Shown: positions 10,829-55,449, counted from the stretch's first letter. The stretch is DNA of 64,000 nt from Desulfurococcales archaeon (GCA_023255955.1 JAGDWD010000008.1:1-64000), one strand, 5' to 3'. The notes: generated by a model from the letters alone, not told the origin. Program-made: numbers and translations.

Positions 10829-11134
10829 GGGGGCTGTTCTGTTTTTGATTGGTGGGTGTTTGGTTTATGATTTTTGTTTTTAGGGTTGCTGTGTTCTGGG
10901 GTTGTGTGTTAAGCTTATAAACTTCATTCTTATAAGTAGCTTGGATACCCCGCTGAGTAATGGGAGCGGTGCTCCGAGCTCTGCGGGGTTAGGTGTAGAT
11001 GTGTCCCGCATGCCGTTCGGGACGAACGCCACCCATGACCCCACAGAGGTACCAAAAACCCTGTGGACGAGGTGGAAGTCCCTAGATGTGGTGAACAAAC
11101 ATAAACCCACATCAACGAGCATCTAGGGACAAAC
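10829..11134 (+). repeat. Dispersed structured-RNA repeat, copy A (full length)
   Basis: About 306 bp. It opens ggctgttctgttttt, continues as a C-poor G/T-rich stretch to about 10910, then a TATA box, then a hairpin-rich section. Visible stems are ACCCCGC/GCGGGGT (near 10945 and 10984) enclosing GGGAGC/GCTCC, GTCCCG 11003-11008 with CGGGAC 11018-11023, CCACAG 11041-11046 with CTGTGG 11061-11066, and TCCCTAGATG 11079-11088 with CATCTAGGGA 11120-11129. It ends acaaacgg. Copies B and C match along almost the whole length, with base changes that keep the stems. No convincing protein is encoded. Together with the flanks it fills the gap 10721-11184. Confidence 0.85.
10914..10922 (+). promoter_or_regulatory. 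TATA box inside structured repeat A
   Basis: cttataaac in the context gttaagcttataaacttcat. Copy B keeps the context as gttaagcttattaacttcat at 13810-13829. Usual spacing places the transcript start near 10945, just where the hairpin-rich part begins, which argues that the repeat carries its own promoter. Confidence 0.5.
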
Positions 11135-11184
11135 GGGAGGTCAGGTTAAAGGCTTTAGATAGTTCTAGTAATGGTGGTGTGAGT

Positions 11185-11943
11185 ATGTACGTTGGTTGTT
11201 GCGGTTACTGTGTCAGTAGGTCGAGGTACTACAAGGTCTTCAAGACTGTTGAGCTCCAGGAGACCTTCTACGATCTTCCTCCACTGGAGCGTTTAGAGAG
11301 TCTTCGGAGGGAGGCACCTGAGGGCTTCGTGTTCAACATGAAGGCGTATCAGGGGGTAACACACGACCTAGACTCACCTACGTGGAGGAGGTCGAGGAGG
11401 AGACCTAGCGAGGAACTGAGGGGTAGGATAGGATATCTCAGGCCCACCAAGGAGAACCTAGAGTTGTGGGATGAGATAGTTGAGAGAGCTAGAGCTATCA
11501 GCGCGAGGGTCGTAGTAGTTCAGACACCTCCCTCATTCGGGTACTCGGAGGAGAACTTCAGGGCTGTCCGAGAGTTCTTCTCCTCCACCGTAACCAGTAA
11601 CTTCATCGTAGGGTGGGAGCCTAGGGGTACCTGGCTCGATAACCCGGATAAGGTGAGGGAGATAGTGGGGGCCTTCGAGAGCCTTATACACGTGGTCGAT
11701 CCTTTCAGAGCTAGGCCCGTGCTGGTGAAGGACGTCAGCTACTTCAGGCTTCACGGTATAGGTGGTAAGGAGGTTAACTACAGCTATAAATATACTGACG
11801 AGAATCTTAGAGCTCTCTGCGGCTTTGTGTCTGAGGTAGCTAGGACGTCTAGGGAGATCTTCATAATGTTTAATAACGTAGCGATGGCTCAGGACTCACA
11901 GAGGTTCATAGCTCTCTGCTCCTCGGGGGTCAGCAATGAGTAG
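11185..11943 (+). CDS. DUF72 (YecE-like) TIM-barrel family protein
   Basis: About 252 residues with the usual DUF72 landmarks: an N-terminal YVGCCGY strand, VELQETFYDLP, FVFNMKAYQG, a central VVVVQTPPSF, GWEPRG, and YFRLHG near residue 190. The family adopts a TIM-barrel fold and its reaction is not established. ATG 11185 follows GGTGG at 11173-11177; an in-frame GTG at 11179 is the alternative. A TATA-like ctttagat at 11153-11160 separates it from repeat A. The 3' end overlaps the archease gene by 8 bp, so the two form an operon. Confidence 0.88.
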   Translation: MYVGCCGYCVSRSRYYKVFKTVELQETFYDLPPLERLESLRREAPEGFVFNMKAYQGVTHDLDSPTWRRSRRRPSEELRGRIGYLRPTKENLELWDEIVERARAISARVVVVQTPPSFGYSEENFRAVREFFSSTVTSNFIVGWEPRGTWLDNPDKVREIVGAFESLIHVVDPFRARPVLVKDVSYFRLHGIGGKEVNYSYKYTDENLRALCGFVSEVARTSREIFIMFNNVAMAQDSQRFIALCSSGVSNE

Positions 11944-12373
11944 CTGCAACTACTTCAAGTTCCTGGAGCACACAGCTGATGTTTATGTTGAGGTGTGTGG
12001 TGAGACTCTGGAGAAGGCGTTCGAGCTAGCTGGGAAGGCTCTCTTCGAGGTTATGACGGATACAAGTAAGGTAGAGCCGAGACAGACGTACGTAGTTGAG
12101 GATAGAGGATTCGACCTAGAGAATGCTCTGTACAGGTGGCTGGAGGATCTACTAATAGAATACGGGAGGTCCGGCACGGTCTTCAGCACCTTCAACGTCG
12201 AATACGTTAGAAAGGAGGGTGAAGAATACGTATTTAGAGCTACATGCTCCGGGGAGCAGTTCGATTCAGAGAAACATGAAGCTAGAACAGAAGTAAAGGC
12301 AGTGACCTACTCACTGATGGAGGTAAGACCGACAGCTAGTGGGTGGATCCTGAGATTCGTACTAGACATCTAA
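11936..12373 (+). CDS. Archease (RtcB tRNA-ligase cofactor)
   Basis: Small metal-binding protein that activates the RNA ligase RtcB by helping guanylylation; it is needed for multiple turnover in tRNA splicing. The 145 residues include FLEHTADV with the metal-binding His/Asp at the N terminus, the acidic ALYRWLEDLLI helix, and HEARTEVKAVTY near residue 108. Length and motifs are standard. rtcB itself is not in the window. Confidence 0.93.
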   Translation: MSSCNYFKFLEHTADVYVEVCGETLEKAFELAGKALFEVMTDTSKVEPRQTYVVEDRGFDLENALYRWLEDLLIEYGRSGTVFSTFNVEYVRKEGEEYVFRATCSGEQFDSEKHEARTEVKAVTYSLMEVRPTASGWILRFVLDI

Positions 12374-12545
12374 CCCTCTCCACCGTTTTCTCTGAATACT
12401 TGCTGATTTACTCACTCGTTTACCTGGGAACCTCCACTACCTACAGAGGTTTAAAGTACCTATATTAGGTCATGGACGTTAGTTAAGCCAGGTAATATGG
12501 GACGGGGATCGTGAACCTAGCTTCCGGTAACTGTCTACGAAATTA

Positions 12546-13700
12546 CTAGATTGATATCTCTAAGGTGCTTCTTGAGGTGAGGGGAGCTACTAGGGCTCTA
12601 CTAGTTAAAGACTCTATGAACATCCTGATGTGGTTGTCGTAGCTGAGGTGCTTACCGACATGGACGTAGAGTCTCTTACCGGCTAAACCAACGGATCTTG
12701 CCAGTTTCAGTAGGGTGGGAACGCTTTTAGATAGGTAGTACTGCTGTCTCAGGTCCCTAGCTAAACGTGTGAAGTGGGACTGTACCCGGTACTTACCTCT
12801 CAGGATGAGTTCAGGGATAAGCCTGCTAGCTATCGATATTCCGTAGAGACCTCCCCCACTTAAGCTCTTCACCATAGCTACCGCATCCCCTAAGCCGACC
12901 ACTCCCTCACCTATAGCCTCTATCGGGTACCCACGCAGTACAGCACCACCGTAAACACCTGAGAACGGCTTGATGCTGCCGTAAAGCTTGGAGGCTAAGG
13001 AGGTCATCATTCTGAGACATTCTAGCGAGCTTATAGAGCGGTTATCTGAGGCACAGCCGATCGTCAGTCCCCTCCCTCCTAGCGGGACTAGCCAGGCAAA
13101 TCCTCCACCGAGGTAACTAGAGATTACTGCTGTGATCGAGTCCTCTATAAGTTCTGATCTGTTCCCAACCTCGACATCGACCTGGACACCGGAAAGAACC
13201 CGCACACACCGTTTCAGCCCTAGAAGACCGGGTAATCTAGCATTATACCCAGACGCTAGGACCAGGTAGTCGTAGTGTGAGCTACCGCTCCTAGACCTCA
13301 CGTCCCAGCCTCCCCCCAATCTTCGAACCTCGTAGACAGGGTCATTATAGGACACCTCAACACCTCTCAGCATGATATCGTTGAGTAGCATCCTCTCGAA
13401 CTTAACCCTATCTAACCTAGTGATAGCGTACCGGTCGTAGCTAAACGAGGCTGAGAGTTTAAGCTCGGGAACTAAGAGTGTGACTAACCTAAAGCGTGCT
13501 AGCTCAGCCTCCCTACTTAGAGGAAGCCTCTCAGCAGTCTCAACTGAGACAAGACCTGTACAGTGCGGCCTAGCCGGGCTTCCCCTAGCCTCGAAAACAC
13601 TTACCTCCAACGACCCGGCACTTCTAATTAGGTAGTAAGCAGAGAGCAGACCTGAAACACCAGCACCTATCACAGCGATCCTCGTGTTCGAGCTATCCAC
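12546..13700 (-). CDS. FAD-dependent geranylgeranyl reductase family protein
   Basis: A 384-residue flavoprotein with N-terminal GAGVSGLLSAYYL (dinucleotide binding, residues about 12-24), the family PHCTGLVS region (about 48) with a Cys-containing motif, and the second FAD motif GLGDAVAMVKSLSGGG (about 267). Relatives saturate the isoprenoid chains of archaeal lipids, but the family also holds other oxidoreductases, so the exact substrate is open. The start is GTG 13700. It diverges from repeat B, which begins about 15 bp upstream. Confidence 0.82.
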   Translation of the reverse strand: MDSSNTRIAVIGAGVSGLLSAYYLIRSAGSLEVSVFEARGSPARPHCTGLVSVETAERLPLSREAELARFRLVTLLVPELKLSASFSYDRYAITRLDRVKFERMLLNDIMLRGVEVSYNDPVYEVRRLGGGWDVRSRSGSSHYDYLVLASGYNARLPGLLGLKRCVRVLSGVQVDVEVGNRSELIEDSITAVISSYLGGGFAWLVPLGGRGLTIGCASDNRSISSLECLRMMTSLASKLYGSIKPFSGVYGGAVLRGYPIEAIGEGVVGLGDAVAMVKSLSGGGLYGISIASRLIPELILRGKYRVQSHFTRLARDLRQQYYLSKSVPTLLKLARSVGLAGKRLYVHVGKHLSYDNHIRMFIESLTSRALVAPLTSRSTLEISI

Positions 13701-13715
13701 AGTAGACCAGGTAAT

Positions 13716-14038
13716 AGTGGGCTGTTCTGTTTTTTATTAGTGGTTGTTGGGTTTATGGTTTTGTTTTGTGATTGGTTGTTTTAGAGTTGCTGTGTCTTGG
13801 GTTTATGCGTTAAGCTTATTAACTTCATCCCTAACCGACATGGACGTAGTGCCAGCTTCAGTAGGGAGCAACGCTCCGAGCTCTGCGGGGTTAGACGTAG
13901 ATGGGAGCTCCGTGCCGTTGGGCTCGACAGCCACCCATGACCCGCAGGGATACCCAAGACCCTGTGAGCGAGGTGGAAGTCCCTAGATGTGATGAGCGAA
14001 CATGAACCCACATCAACGAGCATCTAGGGACAAACGGT
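13716..14038 (+). repeat. Dispersed structured-RNA repeat, copy B (full length)
   Basis: Clear homologue of copy A from ggctgttctgtttttt to acaaacgg, about 323 bp. The TATA-like gcttattaac lies at 13814-13822. The stem that is GTCC/GGAC in A becomes GAGC 13905-13908 with GCTC 13922-13925 here, a set of paired changes. CAGGG/CCCTG and the terminal TCCCTAGATG/CATCTAGGGA pair are kept. The 3' flank 14039-14257 holds no recognised gene; a TATA-like attatag near 14215 may serve the next gene. Confidence 0.85.
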
Positions 14039-14257
14039 AGTGAAGCATAAAACCTGGTATCGGGTATTGCTCAGAACTTCAGCACAAACTACTTACCGAC
14101 CTACCCTACGGGTTCCACGCATATTGTTCAGTAGCTACTGAAAGTAGGAATACTACCTCCCGGCTAGAACAGGTTTGAAGTCCTTGGTGAGGCCTCTTTC
14201 CACTACCACTAGGAAGTTATTATAGCTCTTTCTCACAATTACTTTGGTGTACCGTGC

Positions 14258-14503
14258 TTGGGTGTTAAGGCTTACGTGTTAATCACTACTATAATGGGGA
14301 GTGAGTACGAGGTTTTAGAGGATCTGATTAAGATGGCGGGACCGGATGTTAGTATTCAGGTTGATGTAGTGTACGGAGTGTATGACTTGGTAGTAGTGGT
14401 AGAGGTTAGTGATCTGAGCTCTTTAGATCGGGTAGTAACCAATATAAGACGTCACCCTAAGGTAACAAAAACAGTTACCTTGATCTCCTCCACAGCAAGG
14501 TAG
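14258..14503 (+). CDS. Stand-alone Lrp/AsnC ligand-binding (RAM) domain protein
   Basis: An 81-residue protein equal to the C-terminal sensor half of Lrp/AsnC regulators, without any helix-turn-helix. It opens KAYVLITTIMGSEYEV and has the central GVYDLVVVVEV motif, which forms the dimer and amino-acid pocket in this fold. Such single-domain proteins assemble into rings and may modulate full-length Lrp partners, an inference. The start is TTG 14258 after GGTG at 14245-14248. The following gene is proS with its own TATA box. Confidence 0.85.
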   Translation: MGVKAYVLITTIMGSEYEVLEDLIKMAGPDVSIQVDVVYGVYDLVVVVEVSDLSSLDRVVTNIRRHPKVTKTVTLISSTAR

Positions 14504-14523
14504 GAACAGTGTTGTACAGTTAA

Positions 14524-14533
14524 ACTTATATTT
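14524..14533 (+). promoter_or_regulatory. TATA box of proS
   Basis: acttatattt lies about 32 bp before the proS ATG (14561), the distance expected for a nearly leaderless transcript. Confidence 0.6.
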
Positions 14534-14560
14534 CTTAACGATAAGGGGCGTAGGGGTTGT

Positions 14561-16009
14561 ATGGGGATCTATAGGGACCTGAGGAAAGACTTCGATGAGT
14601 GGTTTGATTGGGTGATACGTGAGGCTGAGATATATGATTACGGGAGGTACCCGATAAAGGGTATGGGTGTCTGGCTACCTTACGGGTTTAAGATAAGGAA
14701 GTACGTGATAGACCTGATGAGGGACCTACTTGACTCTACAGGGCATGAGGAGATATTACTACCTATACTCATACCTGAAAACATCCTCGCGAAGGAGTCT
14801 GAACATGTTCGCGGGTTTGAGGACCAGGTTTACTGGGTCACGCATGGAGGGCTCACACCCCTGGATGTTAAACTAGCTCTGAGACCAACGAGTGAGACAC
14901 CTCTATCGTACTTAGAGTCCTTCTGGATCAAGAGCTACAAACAGCTACCTAAGAAGTACTACCAAGTCGTCAGCATATTCAGATATGAGACAGCTGCTAC
15001 TAGAGCTATGATCAGGGTTAGGGAGGTGACTACGTTCAAGGAGGCCCACACACTGCACGCAACCTTCGAGGACTCTGAGAGGCAGGTGCTGGAAGCTGTC
15101 GACGTGTACAGCAAGTTCTTCACCGAGCTCGGAATCCCCTTCCTAGTGTCTAAGAGGCCTGAGTGGGATAAGTTCCCCGGGGCTGTCTACACCATAGCTT
15201 TCGATACGTTAATGCCTGACGGTAGGACACTGCAGATAGGTACGGTTCACAACCTCGGGAGGTCGTTCACGATAGCTTTCAATGTGTGGGTTCACATGCC
15301 TGACGGATCCATGGAGTACGGTTGGCAGACGAGCTACGGGATATCTGAGAGGGTTGTAGCGACAGTCATATCTGTACATGGGGACTCCGTAGGGCTGAGA
15401 CTGCCCTTCAACTACGCACCTATACAGGTAGTTATAGTACCTATCCCCGCCGCACCCAGCGAGCTGAAGAAGGATGTTGAGGAGCTCTGCGGTAAGATAG
15501 CTGAGAAGCTTAGATCTGCGGGTATTAGGGTAACTATCGACGATAGGGAGGACATGACGCCGGGAGATAAGTTCTATTACTGGGAGAGAAGAGGTGTTCC
15601 ACTGAGGATCGAGGTAGGACCTAGAGAAGTCCAAGCTAAGGTGGTGACCTTAGTGAGGAGGGATAACCGGGAGAGGATAACCGTTAGCTTAGATGAGCTC
15701 TGCGAGACTGTGAGGAAGGTTGGTGAGGAGTATGATAAGGCAATAAAGAGTGAGGCTGCGGAGGCCTTCAGTAAGCATGTGGTGAGGACCTCCGACCTCG
15801 AGGAGGCAGCGAACCTCGTCTCAGCAGGCTACATAGTGGAGGTACCTTGGTGTGGTAGGGTGTCCTGCGCTAATGAAATTGAGCTTAGAGTTGGGGGTAA
15901 GGCTCTCGGAACGCCACTTAAGGTGGATGAAAGCTCTGTTCAGGGGCTTAAGTGTGCTCATTGCGGGAGGGAAGCTAAGGTATTTATGAGGTACTCGAAG
16001 AGGTACTAA
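14561..16009 (+). CDS. proS: Proline--tRNA ligase (archaeal/eukaryal type)
   Basis: Class II synthetase of 482 residues that charges tRNA-Pro. Landmarks are the motif 1 region near 45-70, the LRPTSETPL substrate loop (about 109-117), motif 2 [24 protein letters not shown] (first and last parts visible around 145-168), the anticodon-binding domain after about 290, and the C-terminal zinc-binding domain with paired cysteines (CGRVSC and CAHC) ending in Tyr-rich KRY. This layout is the archaeal type without an editing insertion. It is followed 7 bp later by the TGS GTPase. Confidence 0.96.
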
Positions 16010-16016
16010 CTAATCT

Positions 16017-17201
16017 ATGGTTACTAACCTACCGGCTGAGGCCAGAGCTAAGTGGTTGAAGTACTTAGATGCTAGAACTACTGAGGAAAAGATAAAAGCA
16101 CTTGAGGAATTTCTCTCCGCTGTACCTAAGCATAAGGGCACGGAAAACCTGGTTGCTTGGGCCAGGAAGAAGCTCTCCGAGCTTAGGGAGGAGCTTGAGG
16201 AGAGTAAGAAGAGAAGAGGGGGAGGCCCATCATTCTTCGTTGAGAAGCATGGTGCGGCTCAAGTAGTTCTACTAGGCTATACCCTCTCAGGTAAGAGCTC
16301 CATTTTCAATGCCTTAACTAACGCTAAGTCTAAGGTAACAGGCATCCCCTACACCACCATGTTCCCAGTACCGGGAATGATGGTGTATGAGGATGTGCAG
16401 ATACAGCTCGTAGATACACCACCATTCGCTCCGGAAGGTGTTAAGGTCTCTTGGAGGGGTAGGTTACTGGGTTTAGCTAGGAACGCGGATGCTCTGCTAC
16501 TTGTTCTAGATGTGACGAGAGATTCGGAGGAGCAGTTGAGGAGTATGGTGAAGGATCTTGAAGGTCTAGGAATACTGCTGAGGAAGCCTAGGGGGAGGGT
16601 TCAGATAGAGAGGAGTAAGGCGTACTCCGGGATTAGGTTGGTGAAGATGGGGAAGATAGTTGATGGGACTGAGGATGATGTGAGAAAACTACTTGAGTCG
16701 TACCGTATATACAACGCTCTAGTAAAGATATATGGTGAGGTTTCCTTAGACGACGTAGAGAAATCCCTCTTCGAGGCAGTAGTATACAAGCCATCAGTAG
16801 CGCTACTCAACAAGATCGACCTCATAAGTCAGGAAGAGCTAGATAAGCTTACTAATAGAATAAGGGAGCAGTTCCCCGACATACCGCTAATACCTGTATC
16901 AGCCACTACGAGACAGGGGCTGGAGCTAGTTCCAAAAGCTGTCTTCAACTCACTAGACCTAATTAGGGTATACACTAAAGAGCCTAACTCTAGAGAGCCC
17001 TCGAAAGAGCCTCTAGTCATACCTAAAGGATCTACAGTTGAGGACGCTCTTAAAGTAATACGTGAGGAGTTCATTAAGTACTTTAAGTATGCTAGGATAT
17101 GGGGTCCCTCAGCTAAGTATCCAGGTGAGAAAGTAGGGTTAGACCACGTACTAGCAGATGGGGATATAATCGAGATTAGAACACAGATAAGAGGTATTTA
17201 G
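16017..17201 (+). CDS. OBG/DRG-family GTPase with C-terminal TGS domain
   Basis: A 394-residue GTPase related to archaeal DRG proteins. It has an N-terminal helical region (about 1-75, charged), the P loop GYTLSGKSS (about 87-95), switch region GIPYTTMFPVPG, DTPP (about 133) and NKID (about 265), and ends in a TGS domain (about 325-394) containing the typical late phrase HVLADGDIIEIRT. The P loop differs from the common DRG form GFPSVGKSS. Relatives act on ribosomes; a precise role is not known. It is probably co-transcribed with proS. Confidence 0.9.
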   Translation: MVTNLPAEARAKWLKYLDARTTEEKIKALEEFLSAVPKHKGTENLVAWARKKLSELREELEESKKRRGGGPSFFVEKHGAAQVVLLGYTLSGKSSIFNALTNAKSKVTGIPYTTMFPVPGMMVYEDVQIQLVDTPPFAPEGVKVSWRGRLLGLARNADALLLVLDVTRDSEEQLRSMVKDLEGLGILLRKPRGRVQIERSKAYSGIRLVKMGKIVDGTEDDVRKLLESYRIYNALVKIYGEVSLDDVEKSLFEAVVYKPSVALLNKIDLISQEELDKLTNRIREQFPDIPLIPVSATTRQGLELVPKAVFNSLDLIRVYTKEPNSREPSKEPLVIPKGSTVEDALKVIREEFIKYFKYARIWGPSAKYPGEKVGLDHVLADGDIIEIRTQIRGI

Positions 17202-17470
17202 GATCCATTCTGAACTCACCAAATAGTAGGGTACCGGAAATATTACCTTAAGAGATGCTATTACCTACCGAGATTTTCACACAGCACACAACCTTCGTTT
17301 CACTATTTCGTGCTTTATAGAGCTTGAAACCTCATGCGATGAGATCTTAAGGACTTCACGTACTAGATGATGCCGTCATCGAGGTCGACTAACTATAGGT
17401 CGGTTCTATGATGTGGTGCTAGAGCTTTTAGGTTTAATATGTTTTCTGCTTAGTAAGCTGTGGATGAGAC

Positions 17471-18868
17471 ATGGTAACCCCTGACTTAGCTCACCAAGTT
17501 CTAGAGGAGGTGTTAAGGAGGGGTGCGGAGAGTGCTGTAGTTAGGCTACAGGAGAGGATATATGAGTCCATAGTTTACGATACCGGTGTTTTAAGGAGCT
17601 ATAGTGTTAGTAGGGTCATCGGCCTGGGGGTCCGGGCTTCAGTAGGTGGTGGGGTCGGCTACGCGTACAGTACGTCCTTAGATAGGGAGAGTATTGTTAG
17701 AGCTGTTGAGCAGGCTATTAGCATAGCGAGAGTGGCTGGTAAGTACGGGAAGAAGGTGTTCGCACCCGTCAAGCCTGTGAAGGACTCCTACAGGGTGGAG
17801 GTTAAGGTAGATCCGTTCAGTGTAGAACCGAAGGCTAAGGTAGATCTAGTAAAGGATGTGAATACGAACAGCCTCAGGAGGGAGGGGATAGTCTCAGCTG
17901 TTACTAGGATGGGGCTGGAGAGGGATAGGAGGATAATAGTTACTAGTGAGGGTTCTGAGATCGAGGTAGATGTGGCAGGTGTTGGAGTAGCTCACATGGC
18001 TGTAGCTAGGTATGGAGCGACCATAGAGAGGGTTGGTGATAGGGAGTCCTACATAGGTGGCTATGAGTACATAGAGAGGAAGGACTGGAACACGTTTGCG
18101 GAGGAGATAGATAGGTTAGCACTAAAGGCTGTTCAGGCTAAGACCCCGCCTCCAGGTACGTACGTTGCTGTCGTAGATAACGAGGTGGTGGGCCTCCTCC
18201 TCCACGAAGCTTTCGGCCACGCTAGTGAGGGGGACGGGGTAGTTGCTGGAGCATCTATACTTAAAGGTAGAGTAGGGGAGAAGGTAGCTAGTGAGCTCAT
18301 CACGATAGTGGATGCTGGGCTAGTCGAAGGAGGCTATCCAGTACCTTATGACGATGAAGGTGTACCGAAAAAGAAGACGGTCATAGTCGAGAAGGGTGTT
18401 CTCAGAGGCTACCTAACAAGCCGTGACTCAGCTCACGAACTCGGTATGGAGCCCACAGGAAATGCTAGGGCGCAGGACATAACTTTCGATATCCTCGTTA
18501 GGCAGACCAACTACTATGCGGAGCCTGGCGACTGGAAGGTGGAGGAGCTCTTCGACGGGATATCGTTCGGGATATATCTTAGGGGTAGGGGCGCTATGGG
18601 TGGGCAGGTAAACCCATCTGTCGGGACATACACCTTCAGTATAGGCCCGTCCTACATAATAAGGAACGGTGAGCCATCGGAACTAGTCCGCGGGGTGGTT
18701 GTTAGCGGTAACATACTGGAGACTTTGAGGGAGGTTGATGCCGTAGCGAGAGACCTGAAGATCACGACAAGCGTATTCGGTGGTTGCGGTAAGGGAGGTC
18801 AGACTGTTAGGGTAGGTGATGGAGGTCCGCACCTGCGGACGAGGAAGATTGTTGTTGGGGGTGGTTAG
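17471..18868 (+). CDS. tldD: TldD metallopeptidase subunit
   Basis: Catalytic subunit of the TldD/TldE heterodimeric protease, which degrades small unfolded peptides. The 465 residues include the zinc motif HEAFGHASEGD (about 246-256), whose two His and downstream Cys-containing GGCGKGGQ region fit the family. A TATA-like gtttaatat at 17432-17440 lies about 30 bp before ATG 17471. tldE starts right after its stop, so they form one operon. The 269-bp gap before it holds only this promoter as far as I can see. Confidence 0.94.
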   Translation: MVTPDLAHQVLEEVLRRGAESAVVRLQERIYESIVYDTGVLRSYSVSRVIGLGVRASVGGGVGYAYSTSLDRESIVRAVEQAISIARVAGKYGKKVFAPVKPVKDSYRVEVKVDPFSVEPKAKVDLVKDVNTNSLRREGIVSAVTRMGLERDRRIIVTSEGSEIEVDVAGVGVAHMAVARYGATIERVGDRESYIGGYEYIERKDWNTFAEEIDRLALKAVQAKTPPPGTYVAVVDNEVVGLLLHEAFGHASEGDGVVAGASILKGRVGEKVASELITIVDAGLVEGGYPVPYDDEGVPKKKTVIVEKGVLRGYLTSRDSAHELGMEPTGNARAQDITFDILVRQTNYYAEPGDWKVEELFDGISFGIYLRGRGAMGGQVNPSVGTYTFSIGPSYIIRNGEPSELVRGVVVSGNILETLREVDAVARDLKITTSVFGGCGKGGQTVRVGDGGPHLRTRKIVVGGG

Positions 18869-18869
18869 G

Positions 18870-20213
18870 ATGATAGGGGAGTTAGTGGAGAGGGGTATTA
18901 AAGCAGGGTCTAAGTACGGGGTTAGTGAAATAGAGGTCTACGCGGTTCGAAGGGTAGATACTGATATCGTCGGGACGGTGAGGGGTATAGAGAGGATATC
19001 ATCCGGGCAACGTGTTAGTGTAGGTGTTCGCGTAGTTGTAGGTAAGAAGGTGACGGTTCAGGGTGGGTTCATCTCGAAGGTGGATGATGTGGACAGTATT
19101 GTGGAGACTGCTGTTAAGGTTGCTAGGACCCTACCGGAGGATCCTCAGTGGGTGTCGCTACCTAGAAAGCTGGGGAAGACACATGTTGAGGGAGTTCTCG
19201 ACCCGAGGGTTAGGAACCCGGAGATAGAGTACTTCCTGGAGGTAGCTAAGCAACTCCTAGGTAGAGCTAGGGAACTAGATAGGAGAGCTTTCACAAGCAC
19301 CGTAAGTATGGGTATGTCCACCATTGAGAGAGCTATAGGTAACAACTACGGTGAGGCCCACCTAGACGAGAGTACGGAGTTCGATGTGTTCATTAACGTC
19401 AAGGCGGTGGAGGGTGGTGAGGAGTCTGGGTACTACTACTCCTATGTAGCACCTACCTTACATAGGTTTGACCCAGAACAGCTAGTAGCTAGAGCTACTG
19501 AGGTAGCTGTTAAGACTCTCGGAGCTAGGAGGATAGAGACAGGGAACTACGAGCTGATCCTCATACCGAGGGTTTTCGCCGGGGTTATCCAGTCGTTGAT
19601 AGTCCCGGCAATCAGTGCTGACTCTGTACAGAAAGGTAGGTCCCCACTAAAAGGGAGGGTAGGATCGCAGGTCCTCTCAGAGAGGGTTACAGTAGTTGAC
19701 GACGGTACGTATCCGGGTCTCACCGGTACTAAGAGCTTCGATGATGAGGGTGTGCCCACTAGGAGGAAGGTGGTGTTCGGTAAGGGAGTCCTGGAAGGGT
19801 TCCTCTACGACTCCTACACAGCAAGCATTGACGGGAAGGAGTCGACAGGTAACGCGTTTAGGCAGGCACCGTTCGCACCGCCCTCACCGTGGGTAACTAA
19901 CATAATTGTAGAGCCAGGTAGTGGGGAGCTTTCCGACATAGTTAGGGACGTGAAGAGGGGTGTGGTAATCTACTCCACTATCGGGGAGTGGCTCTCGAAC
20001 CCTGTTAGTGGGTTGCTTAACGCGACCGTGACGAACGCTATCTATGTTGAGAACGGTGAGGAGAAGTTCCCGGTGAGGGGGGTCGTCATATCAGGCAACA
20101 TCTACGAGCTACTTAGACAGCCCGGCCTAACCTTCTCCGGAACAGTCGAAAGCTTCGGTAGGTTCATGTTACCAGCAGTATACATACCGAGAGTTACTTT
20201 AGCAGGTAAGTAA
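18870..20213 (+). CDS. tldE: TldE/PmbA metallopeptidase subunit
   Basis: Non-catalytic partner of TldD. The protein is about 447 residues from ATG 18870, which lies 1 bp after the tldD stop with GGTTAGG in front; longer starts inside tldD are unlikely. It shows the family core LIPRVFAGVIQSLIVPAISAD and SFDDEGVPTRR but lacks the HExxxH motif, as expected for TldE. It converges with the MFS gene at 20262; a T run (tattttt) follows its stop. Confidence 0.93.
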   Translation: MIGELVERGIKAGSKYGVSEIEVYAVRRVDTDIVGTVRGIERISSGQRVSVGVRVVVGKKVTVQGGFISKVDDVDSIVETAVKVARTLPEDPQWVSLPRKLGKTHVEGVLDPRVRNPEIEYFLEVAKQLLGRARELDRRAFTSTVSMGMSTIERAIGNNYGEAHLDESTEFDVFINVKAVEGGEESGYYYSYVAPTLHRFDPEQLVARATEVAVKTLGARRIETGNYELILIPRVFAGVIQSLIVPAISADSVQKGRSPLKGRVGSQVLSERVTVVDDGTYPGLTGTKSFDDEGVPTRRKVVFGKGVLEGFLYDSYTASIDGKESTGNAFRQAPFAPPSPWVTNIIVEPGSGELSDIVRDVKRGVVIYSTIGEWLSNPVSGLLNATVTNAIYVENGEEKFPVRGVVISGNIYELLRQPGLTFSGTVESFGRFMLPAVYIPRVTLAGK

Positions 20214-20261
20214 GGTAGCTATTTTTAGATATTCATCTTAACGGTGTTCGATTTTCAGATC

Positions 20262-21413
20262 TCATCCTCTGTGGATAGGGGACCTACGTTGTATTAGAGT
20301 GTATGCTAGTAAGCTAACGATTCCTATAGGTGATAGAGAAAGAACCACCTTGAGTGATTCAAGGTACGTGCTACCGAAGCTGACGGCTATTGGTGGACCC
20401 ACTAAATTACCTAGATCGAACATAGCTGTGTAAATCCCGGAGGCAAGTCCTCTACTCCTATCTCTCGTACCTAGTACGGCTAGTATCTGCAGAGACGGTA
20501 TTAGGAAGCCAGCACCTACACCAGCTATTACTGAGTAGGGTAGCAGATATGGTGAGGAGGGATCCAACACTATTAGGGCTATACCTGAGATAGCCAGCAC
20601 GAACCCAGCTAGAGCGGTTATATGGTACCTAACCCTCCTTGATATAGCTGTGAACGAGAACCTCGTTATGAAGTTAGCTACAGCTATGGCTGTGAAGATG
20701 GTGCTCGTAACAGTAACATCTACTTCGATGCTCTTATGGTATGCTGGCAGGAAGAGCTGGAAGCTATTGTATACCATGCTATATGCGAGTATAGCTGTTG
20801 AGGCCGCTATGAAGCTGTAGTTAATTATGTCAGCTAGGTTACCCCCACTCCCCCTCCTCTCGATCCTCAGTCCTCTAAATGCCGTCAAGTTGGATACGAA
20901 GGAAATTACTAGGAAGGTGAGTGCTGTAGCGAAGAGTGCTTTATAGTTAAAGCTCTGCACTACTATCCCCCCGATGGCCGGCCCTAAAGACATGGAGAGA
21001 CCTATCATAGTGGATCTCCACGCTAGAGCACTAGCAGAGCCCTCACCAACTAATGTAGCAGTATATATGGAGGCAGGTATAAAGAGGGCCGTACCAACCC
21101 CCTGCAAACACCTCCCGAAGTAAACCAGCATTATGTCTGCTGAGACCCAGTAGAGTAGCTGAGCTACGGCTGCCGAGCCTACCCCCGCTAGCATGAGGAA
21201 CCTCACCAGCCCTCGATCAGCTAAGTAGCCGCTAGCAGGTCTCAGCAGGATAGCAGTAAGGGAGAGTGCTGGGCCGAGGAGCGCGACACCATGCTCATCA
21301 CTACCTAGAGCAACCGCGTACTGTGATATATACGGTGCTATAGAGTGAAGTGAGAGAAAGAAGCAGAGAGTCCCGACATTCAGGAGCACCTCCGCGGTGT
21401 ACTTCATCATACA
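20262..21413 (-). CDS. Major facilitator superfamily transporter
   Basis: A secondary transporter of about 383 residues with 12 predicted membrane segments in two halves. The conserved cytoplasmic loop after TM2 reads GYLADRGLVR, a form of the MFS A motif (G-x-L-a-D-r). A gene of this layout fits small-solute efflux or drug-like transport, but the substrate cannot be inferred. ATG 21413 is chosen over TTG 21428. A TATA-like stretch (ggataaagtataat on the minus strand, about 21449-21462) lies between it and the end of repeat C. Confidence 0.88.
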   Translation of the reverse strand, partial: CMMKYTAEVLLNVGTLCFFLSLHSIAPYISQYAVALGSDEHGVALLGPALSLTAILLRPASGYLADRGLVRFLMLAGVGSAAVAQLLYWVSADIMLVYFGRCLQGVGTALFIPASIYTATLVGEGSASALAWRSTMIGLSMSLGPAIGGIVVQSFNYKALFATALTFLVISFVSNLTAFRGLRIERRGSGGNLADIINYSFIAASTAILAYSMVYNSFQLFLPAYHKSIEVDVTVTSTIFTAIAVANFITRFSFTAISRRVRYHITALAGFVLAISGIALIVLDPSSPYLLPYSVIAGVGAGFLIPSLQILAVLGTRDRSRGLASGIYTAMFDLGNLVGPPIAVSFGSTYLESLKVVLSLSPIGIVSLLAYTLIQRRSPIHRG

Positions 21414-21473
21414 CTCACTCTTCAACACCTTAGACTAGGTAGTCAGTAAATTATACTTTATCCCCACCCTAGA

Positions 21474-21722
21474 CCCGTTTGTCCCTAGATGCTCGTTGAT
21501 GTGGGTTTATGTTCGTTCATCACATCTAGGGACTTCCACCTCGCCCACAGGGTCTTGGGTATCCCTGCGGGTCGTGGGTGGCTGTCGAGCCCAACGGCAC
21601 GGAGCTCCCATCTACGCACAGCCCTAGGGAGCTTGGAGCATTGCTCCCATCACCCCCTAGAGCTTACACCCCTCCAATAATAAAATTCCCTACACAACCC
21701 TAATAAACTTTTCAGCCCAACA
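21474..21722 (-). repeat. Dispersed structured-RNA repeat, copy C
   Basis: Reverse-strand copy of the A/B repeat, most like B. Read on the minus strand it contains the GGGAGC-GCTCC hairpin within a CTAGGG/CCCTAG stem, the same GAGC/GCTC hairpin as B, CAGGG/CCCTG, and the terminal TCCCTAGATG/CATCTAGGGA pair, and it ends acaaacggg. The T/G-rich 5' part is shorter and more diverged than in A and B but keeps tgggctg and ttgtgtagg. It sits upstream of the MFS gene in the same direction. Confidence 0.82.
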
Positions 21723-34295: not shown

Positions 34296-34468
34296 TAGAA
34301 CCTACTTTACCTCCGTAGAGCCTGCCTAGGTTATAGGGCCCCGTACAGTCGGGCTCAACCACCACCTACGAACTCGCAGGGCCCTTGAGAGCCTGCTGAC
34401 TGGGTGGAAATCCCGGGCACTGCGAACAAATATAATAAATAGCAAAAGAGGATAAATATCCAGGGACA
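34296..34468 (+). repeat. Degraded copy of the structured repeat (D) in front of panB
   Basis: Aligns with the 3' two-thirds of copies A-C: gggctcaaccaccacc matches gggctcgacagccaccc, cgcaggg and ctg stems follow in order, then gggtggaaatcccggg and gcgaacaaa match ggtggaagtccctag and gcgaacata. It ends in atatccagggaca, a decayed partner of catctagggaca. Stem pairing is partly lost. The TATA box of panB lies inside its 3' end. Confidence 0.65.
34451..34459 (+). promoter_or_regulatory. TATA box of panB
   Basis: gataaatat, about 18-22 bp before GTG 34473, implying a leaderless or nearly leaderless transcript. It falls within repeat D. Confidence 0.5.
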
Positions 34469-34472
34469 GACT

Positions 34473-35336
34473 GTGTCTAGAGATAAGGTAACCCCATACC
34501 ACTTCATAAAGTCTAAGAGGGAGGGCCGTAGGCTTGTTATGGTCACAGCCTATGAATACACTCATGCTAAGCTAGCGGACGATGCGGGGGTTGATGGTGT
34601 GTTAGTTGGTGATTCACTCGGGATGGTTATAATGGGGTACAGATCGACACTACCTGTAACCTTCGGGGACGTTGCTCACCACCTCAAGGCCGTCTTAGCA
34701 GCTAACCCGAGAGCTCTCGTAGTGGCTGACATGCCGTTCCTCACTTATGAGGTAAGTCGTGAGGAGGCTGTTAGGAACGCAGGTAGGTACATAAAGATGG
34801 GTGCGGACGCTGTTAAGATTGAGGGAGGTGTTGAGGTCATAGATAAGGTGGAGGCGATGGTTAAGGCCGGCATCCCAGTTATGGGGCACATAGGGTTGAA
34901 CCCCCAGAGGTTCCTCGTGCTCGGGATGAGAGTTAGAGGTAAGACAGCTGAGGACGGTTCGAAGATCTACGAGGATGCTAAAGCTCTTGAGGAGGCTGGG
35001 GTCTTCTCAATAGTTATAGAATTCACTACGTCCGAAGTCGCTGCTGAGATAACGAAGGCTTTGAGAATACCGACGATATGCATCGGGGCCGGCCCTATGT
35101 GTGACGGCCAGATCCTCGTCTTCCACGACCTAGTCGGACTTAACACTAGCCCACCACCATTCGTTAAGAAGTACGCTGAGGGGTATCAACTCTTCCTCGA
35201 CGCGTTGAAGAGGTATACCGAGGACGTCAAGTCCGGGACCTTCCCGGAGGAGAGACACTACTTCAAGATGGCTCCGGAGGAGTACAGTAGGTTCCTAGAG
35301 ATACTTAACAAGAAAAAAGCTAGGAGTGGCTCTTAA
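34473..35336 (+). CDS. panB: 3-methyl-2-oxobutanoate hydroxymethyltransferase
   Basis: Transfers a hydroxymethyl group from 5,10-methylene-tetrahydropterin to alpha-ketoisovalerate, giving ketopantoate for CoA. The 287 residues show MVTAYEYTHAKLAD, VLVGDSLGMVIMGY (Mg-binding Asp about 48), VVADMPFLTYEV, VKIEGG (about 117), PVMGHIGLNPQ and TICIGAGPMCDGQILV (about 198). All key residues appear present. The 3' end overlaps the convergent tetraether synthase gene by 17 bp. Confidence 0.95.
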   Translation: MSRDKVTPYHFIKSKREGRRLVMVTAYEYTHAKLADDAGVDGVLVGDSLGMVIMGYRSTLPVTFGDVAHHLKAVLAANPRALVVADMPFLTYEVSREEAVRNAGRYIKMGADAVKIEGGVEVIDKVEAMVKAGIPVMGHIGLNPQRFLVLGMRVRGKTAEDGSKIYEDAKALEEAGVFSIVIEFTTSEVAAEITKALRIPTICIGAGPMCDGQILVFHDLVGLNTSPPPFVKKYAEGYQLFLDALKRYTEDVKSGTFPEERHYFKMAPEEYSRFLEILNKKKARSGS

Positions 35337-40188: not shown

Positions 40189-41692
40189 CCCGTCTTAGTA
40201 ACTCGAATAGGTAGGTAACTAGGAAGGTAAGCATGAGGAGAGCTACAGCAAGTACCGGTAACATCTCCAGGAGTAATCCAGGCTCACTATAGGACCCCTC
40301 ATAGACCGTCACGATAGCGAAGGTAAATCCTACGGAAGCAGCTACCAACCCTACTACGTAGGGTGCTAGCTCCATAGCTTTACTGTCTAGGCTAGAGTTC
40401 TGGGGTTTATCTATACTCCCTATGTGAGCTTTGAGGTACTTTATGCTGTAGACTACAGATAGAGCTACCTCAGTGGAGATAACTATGAGTACGAGGACGT
40501 AGAGCCAGGAGTCCTTAAGGTGGTGTGAGATAGATGTAAATGTGACTACCTTAGCTAGGAAGCCTACAGCAGGAGGCATACCAAACATCGATATTACGGA
40601 GATTATAGCTGCTAGAGAAGCGACTGGAGCGGTTAGATATACATAGCCGAGCTTACTTAAATCCCTATTGTGGGTTAGTGTCTCAATGAACCCTGAGTCC
40701 ATGAAGAGGGATGACTTAAAGAATACGTGTGCTACGGAGTAGATAGTTGCTGCGTCAATGAATGCCGCATCCCCTGAGAGTATGTGAAGGGCGAGTAGTA
40801 TGATTATTGTTGCGGTGTGTGATGTAGTGCTGTAAGCTAGTAACCTCTTTATATCGTACTGTACAGCTGCTTGGAGCCCTCCGTAGATTGCTGTGAGACA
40901 GCCTGATAGGAGCATGAGAGCTACAGCTATATCTCGACATATAGGATAGGAATTAACCATGTAGATCCCGTAGATACCCATCTTAACCATGAGCCCTGAG
41001 AGTAGGGCTGATGCTGGTGCTGGAGCTATAGAGTGGGCGTCCGGGAGCCAGAAGTGGAGTGGTGCTACAGCTGCCTTAGCGAAGAACCCTAATAGTACCA
41101 GTACCGTGACTAGAGGTGATGTTAGATCCGGGGTTAACTCAGTTAGCTGTAGATGTATTGCCTCGCTAAAACCTGCGAGAGCTAGGATTACGAAGAGAGC
41201 TACGTCGGTCGGTATCATAGAGAATAGGAGGTACTTAGCAGCAGCTAGTAAAGCCTCCCTCTCAGCTCTAGCTAGGTAATCGTATGCTATGAGGAAGAAA
41301 CCGAGTAGCTCAGCTATCAACCAGAAGGTAATCATCTCAATTAGTCTGGAGGAAGTGAAGACGGTGAGTATGGATAGTGCGAATAGGTCTACTAGGGGGA
41401 CTAGACTTAGGGACCTGTACTTAGCTATCGAGTACTTAGGTGTGTAGAATGCGAGGAAAGCTGATACGGTAACTCCTGAGAGCAGTAGGAGCCTACTAAA
41501 CGGACTTAGGCTACCAGATACCGGTACTAGTAGTAGGAACCCGATAACCCTAGCTACGTAGCTAGCAACCCTTACACGGATCGGTGGGATATTACCTAGT
41601 AGTATTAGAGCTGAGGACGTAGCTAGGACAGCTTCCCTACTATCTAGGAAAACCTGAGCATAGTCCCAGACCCTACTTACCTCTAGAGCCAT
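40166..41692 (-). CDS. Second MrpD/NuoM-like ion-translocating subunit (operon 1)
   Basis: A 508-residue antiporter-like membrane subunit with about 14 segments. It has the conserved KAAVAPLHFWLPDAHSIAPAPASALLSG (about 212-239) and a later DIKRLLAYSTTSH (about 289), holding the Lys/His residues of the proton channel. It is clearly paralogous to the product of 53938-55449. It lies 4 bp after mrpD. Family: Complex I NuoL/M/N and Mrp A/D. Confidence 0.9.
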   Translation of the reverse strand: MALEVSRVWDYAQVFLDSREAVLATSSALILLGNIPPIRVRVASYVARVIGFLLLVPVSGSLSPFSRLLLLSGVTVSAFLAFYTPKYSIAKYRSLSLVPLVDLFALSILTVFTSSRLIEMITFWLIAELLGFFLIAYDYLARAEREALLAAAKYLLFSMIPTDVALFVILALAGFSEAIHLQLTELTPDLTSPLVTVLVLLGFFAKAAVAPLHFWLPDAHSIAPAPASALLSGLMVKMGIYGIYMVNSYPICRDIAVALMLLSGCLTAIYGGLQAAVQYDIKRLLAYSTTSHTATIIILLALHILSGDAAFIDAATIYSVAHVFFKSSLFMDSGFIETLTHNRDLSKLGYVYLTAPVASLAAIISVISMFGMPPAVGFLAKVVTFTSISHHLKDSWLYVLVLIVISTEVALSVVYSIKYLKAHIGSIDKPQNSSLDSKAMELAPYVVGLVAASVGFTFAIVTVYEGSYSEPGLLLEMLPVLAVALLMLTFLVTYLFELLRRVEKVGES

Positions 41693-53941: not shown

Positions 53942-55449
53942 TCAACGACTTAGTGAGGTACTTAATATACTCAGTATCGACAGCTCTAGTGCTAGCAGGG
54001 AACATAGGAAGAGTCAGGGCTAGCAATATCGGGGCTGTACTCAGGGTATTGGGCTACCTAGCCGTCGCGGCACTACTTTACGATTGGTATCTCGAGACCT
54101 TACCGATGGTTCTCCTAGCAGTCTCAATAGCTGTTGCCTTGATGACTACGCTCTACACCTCCAAATACTCGCTAGGTAAGTACGGGGACACTACCCTCCT
54201 CCCACTAGTGGACTTCTTCACCTTGTCAACAGCCCTAGTTTTCACTTCCAGGTACCTCATAGAGCTCATAGCTCTGTGGCTAGTAGCGGAAATCCTCGGT
54301 TTCTTCGTCATAGTGTACGACGCTATGTTAGGTACAAACCAGAGGGCTTGGTCTGCTGGACTTAGGTTCCTCGTTGTGTCAATGGTCCCAGCAGACCTCT
54401 CCCTACTTATACTACTAGCTCTTACCGGTCTAAACAACTCCTTCAGCATCCCACTAAACCACCTGAAAATTGATCTCGGATCCGAGATACTTACAGCTCT
54501 GACTATGATAGGCTTCATGGCTAAGGCAGCCGTGGCACCACTCCACTTCTGGCTCCCGGACGCCCACTCCATAGCTCCAGCACCGGGCTCAGCAGTACTT
54601 TCCGGGCTCATGGTTAAAATGGGTATCTACGGTCTAGCGAGGCTCGTTACTATGGGGACTCTAAACACAGGTGCTGCTATAGCTATATGCCTGATCTTCG
54701 GATCTCTCACTGCGATCTATGGGGGTCTCCAAGCACTAGTCCAATCAGACATTAAGAGGATCCTAGCATACAGCACGATATCGCATACAAGTACTATAAC
54801 GATTCTCCTAGGTCTTTACATGATGTCCGGGTCCGACACGTTCTTCGGGGCTGCTACGATATACGCCGCAGCACACGCTATCTACAAGGCATCGCTATTC
54901 ATGGACTCAGGGGTTGTTGAGCTCCTCACCCATACGAGGACTTTGGAGAGGTTAGGTTACGTATCTAGGTTCCTCCCAGGAGAGACACTGTCGGCACTCA
55001 TAGCAATACTGTCACTGGTGGGGGTACCACCAACACTCGGGTTCCTAAGCAAGCTAACGCTGTTCATGTCTCTAGGTACCCACATCCCGAGCTCGTGGGT
55101 GTACCTAGTTATAACGATTATAATAGCATTCGAGGTCGTTCTGTCGATAGGTTATAGTACGAGGTATTTACTTGCCCATATGGGGAACCCCTCAGCTAGG
55201 CATGAAGAGCTCAACCTATCGAGTACTAGACTCACCCCTTACGTACTCACACTATCAGCATCTTCAGTAATCCTAATGTTCCCAGTTATCATATGGGTAG
55301 CTCCGACAGTATTAGCAGACTTCATGACACAGTTCCTAGTAATGTTAACATTCTTCGGAGCTATCTTCGGGATAGCTGGGTGGGTCACCTACACGATTTT
55401 AAGACGTGGTAGGAAGGATGAGGTGTGGCTCGGAGGTGCTAGACCGTGA
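53938..55449 (+). CDS. Second MrpD/NuoM-like ion-translocating subunit (operon 2)
   Basis: A 503-residue, about 14-helix protein with KAAVAPLHFWLPDAHSIAPAPGSAVLSGLMVKMGIYG (about 196) and DIKRILAYSTISHTS (about 273). Clear paralogue of the 40166-41692 product. It sits between the iron-sulfur protein and the 118-residue accessory protein and overlaps both by 4 bp. Confidence 0.9.
   Translation: MINDLVRYLIYSVSTALVLAGNIGRVRASNIGAVLRVLGYLAVAALLYDWYLETLPMVLLAVSIAVALMTTLYTSKYSLGKYGDTTLLPLVDFFTLSTALVFTSRYLIELIALWLVAEILGFFVIVYDAMLGTNQRAWSAGLRFLVVSMVPADLSLLILLALTGLNNSFSIPLNHLKIDLGSEILTALTMIGFMAKAAVAPLHFWLPDAHSIAPAPGSAVLSGLMVKMGIYGLARLVTMGTLNTGAAIAICLIFGSLTAIYGGLQALVQSDIKRILAYSTISHTSTITILLGLYMMSGSDTFFGAATIYAAAHAIYKASLFMDSGVVELLTHTRTLERLGYVSRFLPGETLSALIAILSLVGVPPTLGFLSKLTLFMSLGTHIPSSWVYLVITIIIAFEVVLSIGYSTRYLLAHMGNPSARHEELNLSSTRLTPYVLTLSASSVILMFPVIIWVAPTVLADFMTQFLVMLTFFGAIFGIAGWVTYTILRRGRKDEVWLGGARP

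Follow-up and report, generated by a model that had tools for sequence, protein, structure and literature searches.

IS607-derived elements of a Desulfurococcales archaeon carry an omegaRNA without tnpB and may serve TnpB in trans

Repeat copies at the locus

The window analysed here is a 64,000-nucleotide stretch of a Desulfurococcales archaeon genome (GCA_023255955.1, JAGDWD010000008.1:1-64000). It carries three near full-length copies, named A, B and C, of a short repeat with a conserved hairpin part of ~200 nt. This part is the omegaRNA (right-end RNA, reRNA) of an IS607-type TnpB, and the family almost certainly consists of omegaRNA-bearing mobile elements derived from the insertion sequence (IS) IS607. 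The first-pass annotation, made from the sequence alone, had considered an RNA gene and a mobile element as alternatives; both turn out to be right, the RNA being the guide RNA of the transposon.

The 3' signature of the repeat occurs three times in the 64-kb window and in none of 100 shuffles. An alignment of ~30 genomic copies confirms all three copies with slightly shifted limits. A and B are alike over their full length, and C resembles them only in the 3' part (~175-200 nt). The nested hairpins of this shared part are present as first described, as is the TATA-containing segment in A and B, while the T/G-rich 5' part does not extend to C, whose first ~60 nt form a distinct IS607 left end. 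The features of the copies are as follows.

10831-11136 (+): copy A, complete A-type solo element, 306 bp; left end GGGCTGTTCTGTTTTTG..., right end ...CATCTAGGGACAAACGG; boundaries common to ~23 A-type copies
10831-10900 (+): T/G-rich left end of copy A, IS607-type; agrees at 54 of 61 aligned bases with the sequence ahead of the contig C10 serine recombinase
10909-10922 (+): B recognition element (BRE)/TATA-like box of copy A, TTAAGCTTATAAAC, putative promoter read in the sequence
10937-11136 (+): copy A omegaRNA scaffold with four hairpin domains; 217.3 bits (E 1.6e-61) with covariance model R1, which has A among its own sequences
11137-11156 (+): predicted guide of copy A, taken from the host DNA that follows the right end; length presumed, position by analogy with the ISDra2 reRNA (PMC8612924)
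13719-14037 (+): copy B, A-type solo element, 319 bp, limits from the alignment
13810-13823 (+): BRE/TATA-like box of copy B, TTAAGCTTATTAAC, putative promoter read in the sequence
13841-14037 (+): omegaRNA of copy B, probably defective, with helix P1 disrupted in its 5' strand; R1, 182.2 bits
14038-14057 (+): predicted guide of copy B, on the same basis as for copy A
21475-21718 (-): copy C, C-type solo element, 244 bp; 5' part like the left end of element L078 (47 of 59 aligned bases)
21699-21712 (-): BRE/TATA-like box of copy C, AAAAGTTTATTAGG, within the left end, putative promoter read in the sequence
21475-21673 (-): omegaRNA of copy C; R1, 214.9 bits, E 8.1e-61
21455-21474 (-): predicted guide of copy C, on the same basis as for copy A
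34301-34476 (+): decayed fourth copy, P1 mostly gone and several pairs broken; R1, 48.6 bits, E 2e-14

The decayed fourth copy and the abundance of the family, with ~37 right ends in the genome, go beyond the first description. A BLAST search with copy B hits the 1.64-Mb genome at 43 positions, and a genome-wide table of right ends has 37 distinct entries. Subtracting those with tnpB or at contig edges leaves ~32 solo copies without tnpA and tnpB, which measure 229-320 bp. A-type solo copies (n=23) begin with GGGCTGTTCTGTTTTTG... and are mostly 298-320 bp long; C-type solo copies (n=7) begin with GGGC[TA]GAAAAGTTTATTAGG... and span 229-294 bp. Two shortened A-type copies of 259 bp lack the promoter segment. 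These two, L018 and L030, stand at different sites in an identical form without the TATA segment, and represent either a promoter-less subfamily or a stage preceding the gain of that segment. Solo elements are sharp-ended, with GGGC... on the left and ...ACAAACGG on the right, the latter being replaced by ACAAACAG in a few copies and by ACAAATGG in one. Their layout is an IS607 left end, a TATA-bearing segment, the omegaRNA and the right end, and the 3' flank that follows is different at every copy. Left-end-only remnants of ~45-65 nt are found at L051:2679-2740 (-) and L052:2729-2772 (+). Both terminate in TTTTTAGGG, which would fit recombination between a GG within the left end and the GG of the right end, giving still smaller derivatives.

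Origin from IS607

At eight loci of related genomes, translation upstream of the RNA yields the conserved C-terminal part of TnpB, which runs into the RNA. The source genome itself contains a complete IS607 element, L078 on contig C2, with a left end, a serine-recombinase tnpA, a tnpB whose 3' end overlaps the RNA, and the right end CTAGGGACAAACGG common to it and the solo elements. The earlier statement that no protein fits the repeat therefore fails in one respect, namely that the relatives and L078 carry tnpB directly over the RNA. TnpA of L078 scores 239.7 bits against the IS607 transposase model NF033518 (cut-off 110), and combines a serine recombinase domain (PF00239, 86.3 bits) with a MerR-like helix-turn-helix (HTH_17, 34.5 bits). 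Its TnpB contains the PF07282 domain (50.9 bits, cut-off 26.3) with active-site motifs that look intact. The 5' part of C-type elements is identical to the left end of L078 at 47 of 59 aligned bases. For the A-type, 54 of 61 aligned bases agree with the sequence ahead of a second serine recombinase, which is truncated at the end of contig C10. Furthermore, L081 and L082 are intermediates with a left end, a partial tnpB and the RNA. Based on the left-end matches, on L078 and on these intermediates, the solo copies are internal-deletion derivatives of IS607 that have retained the omegaRNA. Several assembly breaks (G000: C3 start, C8 end, C10 end) fall within IS607 tnpA/tnpB/omegaRNA sequence, and at least one autonomous A-type IS607 is probably present but unassembled.

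The elements are short, gene-less, multi-copy (~32), mobile and derived from an autonomous element, in the manner of a miniature inverted-repeat transposable element (MITE). Terminal inverted repeats were not found, GGGCTG... and ...ACAAACGG not being inverted repeats of each other; thus the MITE label applies only in a broad sense. To our knowledge, IS607 elements likewise have none. An origin from IS200/IS605 (Y1 transposase) elements or from palindrome-associated transposable elements (PATEs) was rejected because the left ends match serine-recombinase elements, though Y1 TnpA genes exist elsewhere in the genome. A plasmid or phage element was also rejected, with no match in plasmid and phage collections. 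By exact pattern, a single viral contig (L305:3402-3421, IMG/VR) has the core motif of helix P2.

Conservation of the RNA fold

The consensus fold, drawn from 40 own and related sequences, comprises 47 pairs, 31 of which show compensatory changes. Paired cells amount to 94.8% as observed versus 84.5% when shuffled, and slid controls reach 29-47%. All five fold measures exceed 500 of 500 shuffles, which supports the structured RNA suggested at first. The 25 A-type solo copies alone are 97.0% paired versus 94.7% when shuffled, with none of 500 shuffles as high. Substitutions that preserve pairing are carried by a larger number of solo copies than pair-breaking ones (P=0.007). In 22 of 29 solo copies a premature stop interrupts the former reading frame of the TnpB tail; the peptide is thus not the part that has been kept, and residual coding for the TnpB tail was rejected. 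The RNA fold is strongly supported, and it is retained in copies that have no tnpB.

Among A-type copies, the alleles of helix P2 (GAGCCC/GGGCTC vs GTCCCG/CGGGAC) and those of the next hairpin are found in mixed combinations (alignment A3), which suggests recombination or gene conversion. In copy B, the 5' strand of P1 is swapped for sequence that recurs in a neighbouring gene: ACCGACATGGACGTAG stands at 12654 and 13834, and GCCAGYTTCAGTAGGG at 12700 and 13851. The region 13834-13866 looks patched from this gene (12654-12669, 12700-12715), with a 30-nt internal deletion.

The Rfam scan of the window returned one tRNA and nothing else. At E<=10, only one unrelated chance match was found around copies A and B, and the RAGATH-18 model had no match in copies A, B or L078.

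Promoter-like box

A strict TATA-like box is located at -22 to -24 from the start of the RNA model in 14 of 23 A-type copies. In the C-type it is found at about -34, in all four copies examined, and lies inside the IS607 left end; it is presumably the former tnpA promoter. Solo copies of related genomes have a box within -60 to -21 in 18 of 27 cases, whereas none of the 13 TnpB-linked copies has a TATA-like box (the 13 include L289, which gives no TnpB BLAST match but has a visible tnpB remnant). Since mononucleotide shuffles also yield a box in 10-11 copies per solo group, the presence of a box alone is a weak argument. As read from the sequence, the case for a promoter would rest on the fixed position of the box and on the contrast with the linked copies.

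Insertion sites and mobility

The genes flanking copy A are 464 bp apart, compared with 143-163 bp between the corresponding matches in congeners (five genomes, single contig). The 464 bp correspond to a gap of ~157 bp with the 306-bp element added. At this locus none of six congeneric genomes has an element-like match, although in one of them (G003) the flanks are on different contigs, so that only the sequence 5' of the downstream gene shows the absence. The intergenic sequence around copy A is too diverged for a base-level empty site, and coding insertions were used instead. Three insertions interrupt genes that the congener homologues read through, namely a sodium-dependent-type transporter, an aspartoacylase-like and a CoA-transferase-like gene (names from sequence motifs), and at several loci long reading frames reappear once the element is removed in silico. 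Where the element stands at the three coding sites, the congeners have 3-4 nt with GG (NGG, NNGG, RGGN). IS607 prefers insertion at GG, and these sites fit that preference. With empty sites in congeners, interrupted genes, defined ends and a TATA-like box at a fixed distance, the elements agree with the earlier proposal of a non-autonomous mobile element bringing its own promoter.

A cis-acting leader or promoter for the downstream gene had also been proposed. As was noted at first, each copy in the window does have a downstream gene in its own orientation; for A and C the distance is 42-46 nt. This does not hold genome-wide: the downstream gene is on the same strand for 18 copies and on the opposite strand for 14, without bias. 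Moreover, some copies lie within coding sequences, and the RNA ends at the transposon end. We rejected the leader and give this reading hardly any credence.

The elements could instead be a host-domesticated RNA family, in which solo omegaRNAs guide gene regulation by a TnpB-like protein (cf. TldR-type regulators) and the host maintains the copy number. Many copies with separate promoters would be expected of such a family, and some archaeal TnpB proteins exist without TnpA (PMC10640517). But the congeners differ in insertion sites, several copies interrupt genes, the flanks are unrelated between copies, and orientation to downstream genes is unbiased. The complete IS607 with intact-looking TnpB active-site motifs speaks against domestication too, and this reading is very improbable.

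Distribution in related genomes

Model R1 has matches in 69 of the 117 genomes sampled from the order, and in 55 of 250 drawn from the phylum. Forty sampled matches from 12 other genomes were checked for an upstream TnpB: 12 have a tnpB match directly upstream, one has a remnant, and 27 are apparently solo, with no TnpB match upstream and no tnpB remnant seen in the sequence inspected; these include all 8 from G048 and all 5 from G002. Gene-less copies are thus common across families and not unique to the source genome. The solo copies in relatives score 156-195 bits, within the range of linked copies. Matches in named collections are chiefly to Desulfurococcales and other metagenome-assembled genomes (MAGs) of Thermoproteota; those to actinobacteria and other bacteria probably arose by chance, the pattern being short. 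The RNA core motif also occurs in MAGs labelled Bathyarchaeota, Thermoplasmata, Thermococci and Methanomethylicota (L106, L104, L123, L165), through either horizontal transfer or misbinning.

Other features of the window

The decayed copy at 34301-34476 sits between a ketopantoate-reductase-like gene and panB (ketopantoate hydroxymethyltransferase; neighbours by Pfam). It abuts the start of panB, and may contribute to or disturb the panB leader. An inverted 124-nt pair with 89% identity (40968-41091 and 54509-54632) lies inside divergent gene clusters at 39-45 kb and 49-59 kb, which are apparently paralogous operons.

Proposed mechanism

TnpB binds a right-end RNA that takes its 3' ~16 nt from the flank, and it cleaves DNA that carries an adjacent motif (PMC8612924). 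IS607 TnpBs show the same RNA-guided cutting with G-rich motifs (PMC11061315), and activity at 75 C has been described for an archaeal TnpB (PMC10640517). We propose that internal deletion removed tnpA and tnpB and thereby placed a promoter beside the omegaRNA. The elements would then be moved in trans into G-rich (NGG-type) sites by an IS607 serine recombinase whose gene lies at another place in the genome. Each copy would transcribe the omegaRNA from its own promoter and read past the right end, with the first ~16-20 nt of the host flank becoming the guide. TnpB from the full element would bind the solo RNAs in trans and cut alleles with a retained or regained empty site, and repair from the filled copy would keep or spread the insertion. 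A guide to its own empty site would favour both retention and spread. Since AAACGG precedes the guide at the occupied site, the target-side motif would have to exclude AAACGG; otherwise the element would be cut itself.

We consider the explanation as a whole, namely IS607-derived non-autonomous elements with self-promoted omegaRNAs that serve TnpB in trans, to be quite probable. That the RNAs are working guides used in trans is judged probable with moderate confidence. We lean slightly towards a dispersed guide system, in which dozens of tnpB-less, promoter-driven guide genes would supply one or a few TnpB proteins, homing would spread the elements, and the arrangement would recur across several families of the order.

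Several observations weigh against this explanation. The TnpB of L078 stays under the NCBIfam TnpB cut-off (79.8 vs 100), its left end and 3' hairpin loop differ from those of A-type copies, and the A-type parent is seen only as pieces at contig ends. The target duplication is either 3 or 4 nt, with an ambiguous crossover at the three coding sites. A-type solo copies show two-sided change at only six pairs, their variation being mostly one-sided, and copies within one subfamily are not independent. The shuffles that yield boxes, mentioned above, count here as well, and the TATA match is weakened in 9 of 23 A-type copies. Other points would be expected of a passive IS607 MITE, in which the omegaRNA is inherited baggage or cis-acting DNA needed by TnpA at the right end and no guide works: the promoter segment is absent from L018 and L030, helix P1 of copy B is broken, the copy at 34301 has decayed, the covariation across relatives comes partly from tnpB-linked copies, and a cruder test of distinct substitutions is borderline (P=0.05-0.06). 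However, pairing in the solo lineage is above that of shuffles and pair-breaking changes are rare, the TATA-like box stands at a fixed distance, and solo copies of relatives score as high as linked ones. The ~200 nt also exceed what a recombinase end site would be expected to need. A passive MITE is a possible but rather unlikely reading on this evidence.

Comparison with known systems

In most descriptions, the guide RNA of TnpB comes from the very element that encodes the protein. Here the guide RNA forms a separate mobile unit with a putative promoter, which outnumbers assembled complete IS607 by more than 10:1 and belongs to an RNA family that has no Rfam entry. If the RNAs work, non-autonomous elements can benefit from RNA-guided homing that they do not encode, and the genome amounts to a natural collection of ~32 guides available to one or a few nucleases. 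The group includes cultured relatives.

PATEs are gene-less derivatives of IS200/IS605 that have the ends of a TnpB-bearing family and depend on a Y1 (HUH) transposase. The present elements are similarly gene-less with the ends of a TnpB family, but these ends belong to a serine-recombinase element. ISC1733 is an IS200/IS605-type element. The Sulfolobus islandicus MITE SMN1 (320 bp), which is compared here by description, has nearly the same length as the present elements and likewise relies on the transposase of a different element acting in trans, but this element is ISC1733 instead of IS607 (PMC3718332). In ISDra2, a right-end RNA of ~150 nt with a ~16-nt guide from the flank and a model of donor-site retention resemble our proposal; ISDra2 differs in being an IS200/IS605 element with a TTGAT motif and in making the RNA from the tnpB-bearing element itself (PMC8612924).

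The bacterial IS607 TnpB guided by RAGATH-18 has in common with the present system an IS607 serine recombinase, TnpB, an RNA at the 3' end and a guide from the 3' flank (PMC11061315). Its target side has a G-rich motif, AGGAG/GAGGG, to be compared with the NGG-type insertion sites here. The RAGATH-18 reRNA is stated to be independent of the tnpB coding sequence (PMC11061315), whereas the present RNA overlaps tnpB, matches no Rfam model, and is found mostly in copies without tnpB and with a promoter-like box.

Our literature search, which was thin on subscription journals, found no paper on omegaRNA-only elements or on the omegaRNA content of MITEs. The family was first called undescribed, which is correct for Rfam (no match of its own at E<=10). 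Elements resembling IS607-upstream sequence were, however, reported in 2009 from Staphylothermus marinus: 14 MITEs of ~260 nt, similar to the DNA upstream of IS607 transposases (PMC2678158). Compared by description, they share with the present family the order-level group, a similar size and copy number, the likeness to IS607-adjacent sequence and the interruption of genes; they differ in that they were reported with flanking inverted repeats and were not recognised as carriers of an omegaRNA (PMC2678158). The S. marinus MITEs may be of the same kind as the present family, which offers a ready reading for older archaeal MITEs.

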